DNA of 32,563 nt, from the NCBI GenBank assembly GCA_012689375.1, contig JAAZLO010000004.1, forward strand, positions 1 through 32,563, in the 5' to 3' direction. The notes below the pieces were generated by a model. The model did not search any database, was not told where the DNA came from, and worked only from the letters and a program-made list of their open reading frames with translations. The DNA is from Bacillota bacterium. GTDB taxonomy: Bacteria; Bacillota; SHA-98; UBA4971. This document shows, in pieces, positions 21,588-26,837 of this stretch. A program made the translations under genes and the position numbers. Each line of letters opens with the position of its first letter. Positions within the stretch are counted from its first letter, which is position 1.

Positions 21588-21635
21588 TGAATGGATATGT
21601 AGACAGTGAAAGAAGATATAAGGGGGCAGGCCGCC

Positions 21636-22865
21636 ATGATCGGTAGAATACCGCATAGCAAAGGAAACACCTATTTTATGGCTGCATGTGCCGTTTTTAT
21701 CACGGTAATAATTGTGATATACCCAAGTATAGCATTTAATGCGTCTATAAAAGGCCTGCACTTATGGTGGGAAATGGTCTTCCCGGCTTTGCTTCCATTT
21801 TTTATAGCTGTGGAAGTTCTAATGGCACTGGGTGTAGTACACTTTATCGGTGTCCTTTTGGAGCCGTTAATGAAACCTGTCTTTGATGTCCCGGGGGTTG
21901 GTGCCTTTGCTTTAGCCATGGGTCTTACAGGCGGATATCCTATCGGAGCCAAAATTGCTGCAAACCTAAGAAAAAGGGGCCTTTGCAGTCAAGCAGAAGC
22001 GGAACGGTTAGCATACTTTACCAATACAGCGGATCCGTTGTTTATGTCGGGTTCCGTAGCAATAGGAATGTTTCATCTGCCTGGTTTGGCAGGGTTAATT
22101 TGCGGGGCACACTATATTTCAGCCGTAATCCTGGGGATATTACTCAGATTTCATGGGAAATCAAAAACGCATTCAATCCCGGGGATCAGCTATACAAAAG
22201 GGAACCTCCTCCTGAGGGCTTTCAATGAACTTTATAACGCACGAAAAGCAGATGGCAGGCCTATAGGGCAGGTATTGGGGGACTCTGTCCGGGATTCAAT
22301 CAGCGCCGTGATATTGATAGGCGGTTTTATTATGATGTTTTCGGTAATTATAAATATTCTGTTCGCTTCAGGAATTACAGGCCTGGCAGAACAATTACTT
22401 ACCCCGGTTATGCGTCTGGTTGGGATAGACCCTGAACTGATTTCACCGATTACCGGTGGGTTATTTGAAATAACCCTCGGAATCGAATTGGCAAGTAAAG
22501 CGCAAGCACCTCTATTGGGGAAGCTTATGGTTTCAAATGCTATAATAGCATGGGGTGGGTTGTCGGTATTCGCCCAAGTATCTGCAATGACCGCAGGGAC
22601 TGATATAAGAATGAGACCTTACCTTATTACCCGGTTAATCCACGCATTAATTGCCGCATTTATTACCATAATAGCTGTAAGCCCCTATGGTCAAGGCTTA
22701 GCAGGGCTGGTAGCTCCTGTGTTCACCTTCAAACCAATAGGAACACAATTACCTTTGTACATCAAGACTGTTACATTATTCACGCGGGCTTTTAAGACAT
22801 TAGCCATAATGGTAGGGCTCTCTGTCAGCATATGGTTTTTCCGAAAATACGATTTACCTTCATAG
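21636..22865 (+). CDS. ylbJ: Sporulation integral membrane protein YlbJ
   Basis: YlbJ is a polytopic membrane protein made in the mother cell and needed for spore cortex formation. The 409-residue product has many hydrophobic segments. Family motifs include WWEMVFPALLPFFIAVE, MGLTGGYPIGAKIAANLR, LAYFTNTADPLFMSGSVA and SPITGGLFEITLGIELAS. I chose ATG at 21636 because GGGGG lies nine bases upstream and the length matches B. subtilis YlbJ; a GTG at 21606 is in frame. It is one of two plus-strand genes here. It ends only 12 bases from the stop of the convergent DivIVA-like gene, with no good terminator between them. Confidence 0.94.
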   Translation: MIGRIPHSKGNTYFMAACAVFITVIIVIYPSIAFNASIKGLHLWWEMVFPALLPFFIAVEVLMALGVVHFIGVLLEPLMKPVFDVPGVGAFALAMGLTGGYPIGAKIAANLRKRGLCSQAEAERLAYFTNTADPLFMSGSVAIGMFHLPGLAGLICGAHYISAVILGILLRFHGKSKTHSIPGISYTKGNLLLRAFNELYNARKADGRPIGQVLGDSVRDSISAVILIGGFIMMFSVIINILFASGITGLAEQLLTPVMRLVGIDPELISPITGGLFEITLGIELASKAQAPLLGKLMVSNAIIAWGGLSVFAQVSAMTAGTDIRMRPYLITRLIHALIAAFITIIAVSPYGQGLAGLVAPVFTFKPIGTQLPLYIKTVTLFTRAFKTLAIMVGLSVSIWFFRKYDLPS

Positions 22866-23877: not shown

Positions 23878-23902
23878 AAGGCCTGAAGAGGCCTTATTTT
23901 TT
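23878..23902 (+). terminator. Intrinsic terminator, plus-strand direction, at the rsmD 3' end
   Basis: AAGGCCT (23878-23884), loop GAAG and AGGCCTT (23889-23895) form a perfect 7-bp hairpin followed by ATTTTTT on the plus strand. On the minus strand no T run follows. It would stop plus-strand transcripts running antisense through the DivIVA-like gene and coaD, for example read-through from ylbJ. The T run is the complement of the last rsmD codons (AAA AAA TAA). Confidence 0.6.
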
Positions 23903-24448
23903 AAGCATATAAAAAGATATTCTGTTATCACCATATTTTTCCTGCCTGGTCAGCTCCAGAGCTCCGGAAGCCTTAGGCATTTTCTCCCCGGTTTCATGAC
24001 GTGATACAATAATACCGTCGGAATCTAAAACCATATTGGCAGAAATAATATCTAGAGTCTCAGGTGCAAGACCGTGTCCATAGGGGGGATCCATAAAGAT
24101 TATTTGGAATGATTCCCCGTACCGATGTAAAGACGCTATAACCCTTCTTACATCCCCTCGGATAACTTTAGCCAGACCATCAAAGCCTGTAGTATCAAGA
24201 TTACCGGAAATTACCCGAATCATACGGGGTGAACACTCTACGAAAGTCACCCATTGGGCTCCCCTGCTTAAAGCCTCAATTCCTATTGCCCCTGTCCCAG
24301 CAAATAAATCAAGGCATCTGGAACCTGGAATATATGGGGTCAGTATATCAAATAACGATTTCTTTATATTGCCGGGGATCGGGCGTGCCTTTCCACCGCC
24401 CGGTCCGCGCAGGCGGAATCCTTTGGCAGTACCTCCGATAATCTGCAA
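23894..24448 (-). CDS. rsmD: 16S rRNA (guanine-966-N2) methyltransferase RsmD
   Basis: RsmD methylates G966 of 16S rRNA using S-adenosylmethionine. The 184-residue product starts MQIIGGTAKGFRL. It has the SAM-binding segment LDLFAGTGAIGIEALSRGA and the catalytic motif DPPYG in IIFMDPPYGHG. TTG at 24448 is chosen because GAGGTGG lies eight bases upstream and the N-terminus then matches the family; a GTG at 24460 is in frame. The ribosome site lies in a small predicted hairpin (24452-24480). In B. subtilis the orthologue (ylbH) also precedes coaD. Confidence 0.94.
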   Translation of the reverse strand: MQIIGGTAKGFRLRGPGGGKARPIPGNIKKSLFDILTPYIPGSRCLDLFAGTGAIGIEALSRGAQWVTFVECSPRMIRVISGNLDTTGFDGLAKVIRGDVRRVIASLHRYGESFQIIFMDPPYGHGLAPETLDIISANMVLDSDGIIVSRHETGEKMPKASGALELTRQEKYGDNRISFYMLKK

Positions 24449-24460
24449 CTGGGTAACCAC

Positions 24461-24718
24461 CTCTGCTGGAATGAATTACCATGTGCGCCCTTGTATAGAA
24501 CATCCGACCTCGCACAAACTACAATCGAAAGAAGAGCCGAGGACAACGGAGCCTGGGCGGTGCCGGGGTTCCAGAACCCTCCCCCATAAGCTCTTCCTCC
24601 GGTTTCTCCTCTCCCACGGGATGACGGTCGCAAGACCGTCGTCTTATTTTTTCTTTAGTTAAAACCGATTACCGTCGGCCTCAAAATCTAGACTTAAACC
24701 TAACATCAGGATCATCCT
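24461..24718. ncRNA. GC-rich structured intergenic element (candidate RNA, strand uncertain)
   Basis: This gap between fakA and rsmD holds no credible gene and is visibly more GC-rich than the rest. Pairable segments, in plus coordinates, are GAAGAGC (24531-24537) with GCTCTTC (24590-24596); TGGG (24554-24557) with CCCA (24583-24586); and GGGTT with AACCC (24566-24579, loop CCAG). These nest into one long hairpin. A second hairpin (24623-24640) is followed by a T run on the plus strand. It may be a plus-strand small RNA of up to about 190 bases, or a leader of rsmD on the minus strand. A weak minus-strand hairpin with TTTT (24661-24678) could end fakA transcription. I matched it to no family I know. 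Confidence 0.4.
24623..24658 (+). terminator. Intrinsic terminator, plus-strand direction
   Basis: GACGGTC (24623-24629), loop GCAA and GACCGTC (24634-24640) make a perfect 7-bp stem with a GNRA loop. It is followed on the plus strand by GTCTTATTTTTTCTTT. On the minus strand no T run follows. There is no plus-strand protein gene upstream of it, which points to a non-coding or antisense transcript. Confidence 0.6.
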
Positions 24719-26437
24719 CTATTCAGTGGAAATTATATAGTAATAAACAGGCTGTCCACCGTAATGAACTTCAACTTCTAAGTACGGATAAATATCAGCG
24801 AGCCGTTCTGCTAATATATCAGCTTCTTCAGAATGCACATCTTTCCCGTAATATATTGTTATAAGGGAAGTATCCTTATCTACCATTTGACTGACGAGAT
24901 TCATCCCTACCTCATCCCGATCTTTCCCCGCTGAACACAGTTCACCGTCTTTTATCCCGATAAAGTCTTTTTCGTCAATTGTAAACCCGTTGACGTTTGA
25001 ATCGCGCACTGCATATGTAACTTCCCCTGTACTTACCTGGGATATAACATCCTTCATGGACTTTTTGTTTGTTTCGGCATCTGCCACAGGGTTAAAAGTA
25101 ACAAGGGCAGAGACCCCCTGGGGAATTGTCTCTGTAGGAATCACCGCTATATCCGTATCAGGCACAAGTTCTTTAACTTTATCAGCCGTGAGAACTACAT
25201 TACTGTTATTCGGCAAGATAATAACACTTTTTGCATAGACCTCATAGACAGCATCCCTGAGCTCCTCTATGCTGGGATTCATTGTTTGCCCGCCTTCAAC
25301 GATAATATCGGCACCTAAGCTTTTCAAAATAGTAGAAATACCCTCTCCGGTAGCTACTGCAACAACCCCGACAGGCTTCTTTACCTTTTGCCCTTTAGAG
25401 TTAATTGACTTTCCTAAACCGGCCCCGGCATTCCCCTCCTTTTCATAACATGCGAATGCAGGTTCATTCTGTGTTAATCTTGCTTCTTCAAATTCATCAT
25501 GTTGGTAGGCCATATTATCAATTTGAATTTCATGGAGTTCACCCATACGAATACAATGTTCCAATACCTGACCCGGATGATTAGTATGGACATGGACTTT
25601 TGCCACTTCATCAGTACCTACAACTAACACACAATCCCCGAACCGGGTTACGTTTTGTCTAAGCATGTTAAGGGGCAAATTTCTGCCTTTTACAAGGAAT
25701 TCCGTACAATATCGGAATTTAAGCTCCTCCTTCGGAGCTTCTTTAGTTTTTCTTAAAGCTTGCCCGACATCTGCTTTCCCGGGGATAACAACTAAAGGTT
25801 CATGTTTTCCGAATATAGGTTCCCCCCGAACTGACTTTACACATCCTTCCCAGAAAAACACAAGGCCCTGGCCTCCTGCATCCACAACCCCGGCTTCTTT
25901 AAGTGCGGGGAGCATTTCAGGAGTAGAATCCAGAGTGTTCTGGGCATCCCTTAATATTCTTTCTATTGCCGGCACTATTTCAAGCTTCATTTTCATACAT
26001 TCCACTGCGGAACGGGCAGCATTGCGGGCAATTGTCAGCATAGTTCCTTCAACAGGCTTCATAACTGCCTTGTATGCCATGGACGCGGCCACCTGCAAGC
26101 CCCGGGCGAGCCCCGGTGTATCTAAGGTTACCTTACCTTCAATTCCCTTTGCAAACCCCCTTAGGAGTTGCGATAGTATAACACCTGAATTCCCTCTTGC
26201 CCCCATAAGCGAACCTAACGCCGCAGCCTCAGCTATTTCAGACAATGTTTTGCCTTCAGTTTTGCCGGCCTCCCGGACAGCAGCAAGAAGTGTTAAGTGC
26301 ATATTTGTCCCTGTATCACCATCCGGAACCGGAAATACATTTAGCGCATTTACGAGCTCTTTATTCGCACCGAGCCACTCAGTCCCGGCAGAGATTGCAC
26401 GCGCAAAATCCTCTGCATCAAGCAAGCTCAGCCCCAA
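24719..26437 (-). CDS. fakA: DAK phosphatase-domain protein, FakA/YloV family
   Basis: FakA is the kinase subunit that phosphorylates fatty acids bound to FakB (DegV) proteins. The 572-residue product has an N-terminal DhaL-like ATP-binding domain (about 1-200) with NVFPVPDGDTGTNM (33-46), MGARGNSGVILSQLLRG, KPVEGTML and DAGGQGLVFF. A middle region and a C-terminal domain (about 300-572) typical of the YloV family follow. I chose TTG at 26437 because AGGGGG lies eight bases upstream and the family starts about there; a frame from 26485 would overlap asp23. The asp23-fakA pair is standard in Firmicutes. recG, which often follows, is absent. The symbol is by family; no fakB is in the window. 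Confidence 0.9.
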   Translation of the reverse strand: MGLSLLDAEDFARAISAGTEWLGANKELVNALNVFPVPDGDTGTNMHLTLLAAVREAGKTEGKTLSEIAEAAALGSLMGARGNSGVILSQLLRGFAKGIEGKVTLDTPGLARGLQVAASMAYKAVMKPVEGTMLTIARNAARSAVECMKMKLEIVPAIERILRDAQNTLDSTPEMLPALKEAGVVDAGGQGLVFFWEGCVKSVRGEPIFGKHEPLVVIPGKADVGQALRKTKEAPKEELKFRYCTEFLVKGRNLPLNMLRQNVTRFGDCVLVVGTDEVAKVHVHTNHPGQVLEHCIRMGELHEIQIDNMAYQHDEFEEARLTQNEPAFACYEKEGNAGAGLGKSINSKGQKVKKPVGVVAVATGEGISTILKSLGADIIVEGGQTMNPSIEELRDAVYEVYAKSVIILPNNSNVVLTADKVKELVPDTDIAVIPTETIPQGVSALVTFNPVADAETNKKSMKDVISQVSTGEVTYAVRDSNVNGFTIDEKDFIGIKDGELCSAGKDRDEVGMNLVSQMVDKDTSLITIYYGKDVHSEEADILAERLADIYPYLEVEVHYGGQPVYYYIISTE

Positions 26438-26459
26438 CGGGTTAACCCCCTGTCGCCGT

Positions 26460-26837
26460 TCACTCAGATTCATCCTCTCGGACATGTGTCACCCTCACAC
26501 CCTGTACTGTGATATTTACTTTCGAAACCTTAAGACCGGTCATACTTTCTACAACATATCTGACCTTATTCATAATGTTATGTGCAACCTCAGTAATCCT
26601 CGTCCCGTATTCAACTATAATATAAAGGTCCACTACAACCTCATCACCAGCAAGCCTAACTTCAACACCCCGGCTCATGTTATCCATGCCAAGGAGCTCA
26701 GCTATTCCATCCTGTATGTTTCTTGACGCCATTCCAACAAGGCCGTAACATTCAGTTGCAGCCATCCCACTGATAAGAGCTATTACCTCATCGGAGATGG
26801 TGATTTGGCCCAGTTCGGTACTGACATCTCTTCCCAT
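26460..26837 (-). CDS. Asp23/Gls24 family envelope stress protein
   Basis: Asp23 family proteins are small acidic proteins linked to envelope homeostasis, usually next to fakA. The 125-residue product has the family pattern ITISDEVIALISGMAATE, then VDLYIIVEYGTRITEVAHNIMNKVRY and VSKVNITVQGVRV (the second given here as IIVEYGTRI and EVAHNIMNKV elsewhere in the protein). The ATG directly abuts the stop of a 30-codon frame upstream (TAA then ATG). The ribosome site GGGGG is rather far (11 bases), so coupling with that frame is possible. A sigma-A promoter about 150 bases upstream faces rpmB. Confidence 0.92.
   Translation of the reverse strand: MGRDVSTELGQITISDEVIALISGMAATECYGLVGMASRNIQDGIAELLGMDNMSRGVEVRLAGDEVVVDLYIIVEYGTRITEVAHNIMNKVRYVVESMTGLKVSKVNITVQGVRVTHVREDESE

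Follow-up and report, generated by a model that had tools for sequence, protein, structure and literature searches.

The GC-rich, hairpin-rich element in the fakA-rsmD gap of the window (the whole 32,563-nt stretch of Bacillota DNA analysed here) is, on sequence comparison, very probably CsfG, a plus-strand sRNA encoded at 24527-24653. What looked like an unnamed leader-like element would thus be a member of a known sRNA family located in an uncultured Bacillota lineage, which widens the known range of CsfG to include an uncultured Bacillota family. An earlier note on this DNA had left two options, a new small RNA on the plus strand or a leader of rsmD on the minus strand. The plus-strand option fits the promoter, the terminator and the wobble pairs presented below, and only its description as new has to be dropped, since CsfG has already been described, reportedly by Marchais et al. 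in 2011 (RNA Biol 8:358) in Bacillus subtilis and Bacillus licheniformis. The features of the locus are as follows:

23894-24460, minus strand: rsmD (16S rRNA G966 methyltransferase), the divergent neighbour, outside the sRNA (TIGR00095, 147.1 bits, over the cut-off)
24493-24521, plus strand: predicted sigG/sigF-type promoter, with -35 GTATA (24493-24497), a 17-nt spacer and -10 CAAACTA (24515-24521)
24527-24653, plus strand: predicted csfG sRNA gene, ~127 nt; the 5' end is approximate (from the promoter position), the 3' end is taken from the terminator
24531-24596, plus strand: closing stem P1, GAAGAGC (24531-24537) with GCTCTTC (24590-24596), without variation in family f1 and also present in five distant families
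24547-24565, plus strand: family-specific inner hairpin, CGGCACC/GGTGCCG in relatives, with one mismatch in the window copy
24566-24579, plus strand: inner hairpin P2, GGGTT (24566-24570) with AACCC (24575-24579), retained in distant families with a changed sequence such as GGTTATT/AATAACC
24592-24615, plus strand: CU-rich core TCTTCCTCCGGTTTCTCCTCTCCC, nearly invariant, the likely target-pairing region
24618-24652, plus strand: intrinsic terminator, with a hairpin at 24618-24645 and a T run at 24647-24652
24719-26485, minus strand: fakA/yloV-like gene, which flanks the sRNA on its other side and is not included in it (TIGR03599, 622.9 bits)

All the pairings named in the earlier note were found on the plus strand, namely the arms of P1, with 52 bases between them, TGGG (24554-24557) with CCCA (24583-24586), the arms of P2, and the hairpin GACGGTC-GCAA-GACCGTC (24623-24640), which is followed by the six T residues of the terminator. 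The GC content of the 127-nt stretch is 59%, compared with 44% in the window and 43% in the remainder of the gap, and fewer than 1% of equal-sized windows are as GC-rich. None of 200 dinucleotide shuffles folds as well as the plus-strand transcript of this stretch (z -3.2), while the signal of the reverse complement is far weaker (z -1.6). The gap had also been said to hold no credible protein, which agrees with its relatives: a consistently open frame across the element was not found on either strand, the best of the six frames being open in at most 29 of 61 loci, so the element is considered non-coding. The gap likewise showed no sign of the recG or mobile-element remnants that the earlier note had named as evidence against its own reading.

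Every genus or family relative that was searched had a match to the gap DNA, with 75-96% identity in the matched stretches, and a piece of ~35 nt shows 86-100% identity across much of the phylum. Within the core, TTTCTCCTCTCCC (24603-24615) does not vary among 23 diverse sequences, which represent about twenty families, and a terminator hairpin of varying sequence follows the core in every family. The DNA is conserved and several stem changes keep wobble pairing, but P1 gains no covariation support because it is invariant. The gene order in the window is csfG-rsmD-coaD-ylbJ, which we take to correspond to csfG-ylbH-ylbI-ylbJ of B. subtilis. The last of these genes (21606-22865, plus strand) encodes the sporulation integral membrane protein YlbJ (TIGR02871, 317.5 bits, over the cut-off) and is convergent with rsmD-coaD.

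The suggested Infernal/Rfam comparison gave a divided result. At the gathering thresholds, no match to Rfam was found in the window, but at a relaxed threshold RF00516 (ylbH leader) matched over all 122 model positions (1-122) at 24544-24652 on the minus strand, with a score of 30.9 bits against a cut-off of 50 and an E-value of 6.3e-5 for the stretch searched. The supposed relationship to the ylbH leader is thus upheld by an end-to-end match, though one below the cut-off. B. subtilis was among the controls matched by the model. Since only one of the 61 relatives reaches the cut-off, the model is too narrow, and most csfG genes are overlooked or mislabelled in automatic annotation. Northern blots in B. 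subtilis detected no ylbH leader; the strand opposite to it gave a strong signal, which was identified as the sporulation sRNA CsfG (PMC3574147). Rfam 15 nevertheless still labels RF00516 as a cis-regulatory leader, despite the assignment of the other strand by northern blot in 2013. CsfG of B. subtilis is under the control of sigF and sigG and confined to the forespore, and it contains C-rich regions (PMC8216469, PMC4409812, PMC9147052); it associates with Hfq in this species (PMC3574147, PMC9147052), and no target was known as of 2021-2022 (PMC8216469, PMC9147052).

The window element shares with CsfG of B. subtilis and B. licheniformis its position next to rsmD/ylbH on the opposite strand, the conserved CU-rich core followed by a terminator, a sigF/sigG-type promoter (by sequence) and a restriction to spore formers. 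It differs from Bacillus CsfG in that the 5' domain of the window family is GC-rich and bears an additional hairpin, that fakA instead of ylbG flanks the other side, and that the score stays below the Rfam cut-off. Among named records, the family-specific form has its nearest matches in metagenome assemblies of uncultured Bacillota/Clostridia. RF00516 covers the same DNA element, but the Rfam model treats the opposite DNA strand, that of rsmD, as a cis-regulatory leader, a definition from which the window element departs in both strand and score. Thus, the RF00516 model is on the wrong strand as well as too narrow, and the comparative evidence from several hundred genomes argues for rebuilding it as a sporulation-linked sRNA family on the plus strand.

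The promoter, the wobble pairs and the terminator all point to the plus strand. Upstream of the element, 23 of 32 homologues have a sigG/sigF-type promoter on the plus strand, where dinucleotide shuffles predict 0.29; the exact enrichment is optimistic, because the regular expression was picked after viewing the sequences and was based on a general sigG/sigF consensus. In the larger set, 34 of the 61 loci carry the same motif on the plus strand, with spacers of 17 or 18; on the minus strand, no such promoter was found on either side of the element among the 32 homologues, nor in any of the 61 loci. Among 60 loci, T-richness after the terminator hairpin (five or more T in 9 nt) was observed in 20 on the plus strand and two on the minus strand, and the terminator stems, under strand-neutral scoring, contain 66 G-U wobble pairs if the RNA is read from the plus strand and 23 if it is read from the minus strand. 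The family alignment agrees: changes from C-G to U-G, A-U to G-U and U-A to U-G at three pairs retain pairing only on the plus strand, and the first two types, which occur in the hairpin at 24547-24565, leave pairing intact on the plus strand and break it on the minus strand, where U-G and G-U would become A-C mismatches. One pair in one sequence (T-A to C-A) is a counter-case that favours the minus strand.

To relate the element to sporulation, we surveyed 399 genomes of the phylum with a 24-nt core pattern, allowing two mismatches. The core was present in 177 of them and the backward control pattern in two, while SpoIVA was present in 336. Among good genomes (completeness of 90% or more, contamination of 5% or less), 157 of 306 with SpoIVA and none of 50 without it carry the core, with genomes lacking SpoIVA told by elimination from the table of SpoIVA results; the Fisher p of 1.1e-14 is not to be taken literally, because the genomes are related and the test ignores shared ancestry. 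When genomes of all qualities are counted, csfG occurs in three SpoIVA-negative ones (G088, G135 and G291), whose assemblies are 61-80% complete. Family f24 offers a paired case, in which five members have both SpoIVA and csfG and G118, which lacks SpoIVA, also lacks csfG. At E <1e-4, a sequence model built on the core recovered csfG in four of 33 spore formers negative for the pattern and in none of 14 genomes lacking SpoIVA; the small number of additions indicates that many spore-former lineages have no recognisable csfG. In families f17, f22, f86, f96 and f100, SpoIVA is present and csfG is not recognisable. Among the good genomes of the survey, csfG, as recognised by sequence, is thus tied to sporulation and confined to endospore formers, but sporulation as such does not depend on it, given that about half of those with spoIVA lack a recognisable copy. 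The window's own genome encodes SpoIVA and SigG (NF006071, 437 bits, over the cut-off). It also contains a second sigma factor of the SigF/SigG family (L051, G000:C84:12529-13206), which scores 231-238 bits, well under both the SigF and SigG cut-offs, and may be a diverged SigF.

What could such an RNA do? We infer that csfG is transcribed in the window's organism, where RNA polymerase of the forespore, carrying sigG (or sigF), would start at ~24527, 5-8 nt downstream of the -10 element on the plus strand, and stop near 24652, producing an RNA of ~127 nt. Its 5' domain would fold into a stem closed by GAAGAGC/GCUCUUC, leaving the CU-rich stretch CUCCGGUUUCUCCUCUCCC before the terminator largely single-stranded and able to pair in trans with the Shine-Dalgarno regions of forespore mRNAs, whose translation would be lowered. 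The CU core is complementary to a generic purine-rich ribosome-binding site (AGGAG/GGAGG), being the complement of GGGAGAGGAGAAA and GGAGG, and in most lineages, though not all, CAU lies 8 nt 5' of CCUCC. Because of this complementarity, pairing in trans is the most likely activity, and we consider it somewhat probable that CsfG blocks ribosome-binding sites through its CU-rich, anti-Shine-Dalgarno stretch. Positions 24592-24596 of the core sit inside P1, so P1 would have to open for full core pairing. C-rich sRNAs of Bacilli, such as RoxS and FsrA, lower translation by pairing with Shine-Dalgarno regions. RoxS/RsaE and FsrA resemble CsfG in that their C-rich regions lie in predicted single-stranded stretches, but they differ from it in having other, non-sporulation promoters and known targets, and no sequence homology is claimed. 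Shared targets or a shared mechanism of CsfG with RoxS/RsaE and FsrA have been suggested by others (PMC8216469, PMC4409812).

A search of 14 genomes with the complement of the core, GGGAGAGGAGAAAC, allowing one mismatch, revealed no conserved ribosome-binding-site partner; the matches were scattered and no gene was widely shared. Matches in ribosome-binding sites included those of an AbrB-like gene (G017), a 2-hydroxyglutaryl-CoA dehydratase activator-like gene (G015) and a gene for a possible outer-membrane transport protein (G001 and G004), which we set aside because the backward control pattern gave a comparable number. In the AbrB-like case (L123:1501-1514), the ribosome-binding site GGGAGAGGTGAAACATG comes close to full complementarity with the CsfG core; this is a single case and possibly due to chance. 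A broader role, in which CsfG would dampen forespore translation of many mRNAs at once rather than act on one conserved target, appears doubtful, although the stretches CCCCCAU-N8-CCUCC and UUUCUCCUCUCCC of CsfG mirror an ideal ribosome-binding site and start codon, and such a role, if true, would explain an invariant core without a shared target gene. A concrete starting point for finding CsfG targets is given by the near-invariant core together with the lineages listed as lacking csfG.

The main alternatives place the function of the element at rsmD. As first proposed for the ylbH leader, a minus-strand cis-regulatory leader would sense something and control rsmD. The Rfam match is indeed written on the minus strand, the cis-regulatory leader label is repeated in papers, and rsmD lies adjacent and divergent, hence downstream on the minus strand, in 54 of the 61 csfG loci, or 54 of the 59 that are testable, the two others being contig ends. 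However, four loci (L043, L080, L081 and L092) have no rsmD within 1.5 kb of csfG, and in another (L070, G276) the orientation of csfG to rsmD is inverted, so csfG cannot be the leader of rsmD; nor, being transcribed opposite to the neighbouring genes, is it a switch in front of rsmD. With the B. subtilis northern blot finding no such RNA (PMC3574147), the promoter, terminator T run and wobble pairs suiting the plus strand only, and a link to sporulation genes being unexpected for an rsmD leader, the leader option of the earlier note is contradicted and very unlikely. A minus-strand leader peptide, by which translation of a 22-codon ORF would regulate rsmD, has next to no probability. It could begin with a good Shine-Dalgarno sequence and start codon (GGAGG-N8-ATG at 24587), and the 22-aa frame is mostly kept within the family, but it is frameshifted in one member (L005), differs in length and content in other families, often ending after 4-8 codons, and has no sigG-type promoter on its strand; this candidate was rejected, as the frame is not conserved across families.

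Two further alternatives accept the plus-strand RNA and assign it another partner. CsfG would lie opposite a fakA-rsmD read-through mRNA and, as a cis-antisense RNA, could pair along all of its length with the 5' region of rsmD mRNA in the forespore and lower the expression of rsmD (and coaD), or the mRNA could sponge CsfG. The gene layout provides full complementarity, and the divergent arrangement with rsmD in most testable loci extends across the phylum, yet the rsmD-coaD order is common anyway, and the core is retained where rsmD is missing or csfG is inverted. A perfect antisense RNA has no need of a near-invariant CU core, because both strands change together; such an effect on the read-through mRNA is possible but unlikely, and it leaves the invariant core unexplained. 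Pairing with 16S rRNA, which could mask spore ribosomes, is suggested by CUUCCUCCGGUUU (24593-24605), the exact 13-nt complement of AAACCGGAGGAAG. In a comparison using sequences from one genome, G037, the only one of 24 with a match to the 16S pattern (probably because rRNA is missing or withheld in the others), ten 16S-like sites read AAACCGGAGGAAGGTGGGGATGACG, complementary to the window core, but the CsfG of G037 itself reads TCTTCGTCCGG, which breaks the match, and other lineages read CCTCCAGTTT, CCTCCAATTT, CCTTCAATTT or CTTTTCTCC. Furthermore, the invariant part of the core falls almost wholly outside the 16S match. The complement to 16S is not conserved among CsfG cores, so 16S rRNA pairing was rejected as extremely unlikely. 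The reading that we prefer remains pairing in trans with ribosome-binding sites.

Where csfG lies apart from rsmD, its neighbour is a recG-like, ribonucleotide reductase-like or transposase-like gene. G007 seems to carry two csfG copies, but each lies at the end of a contig; as one retains the rsmD flank and the other the fakA flank, they probably represent one locus split by the assembly.
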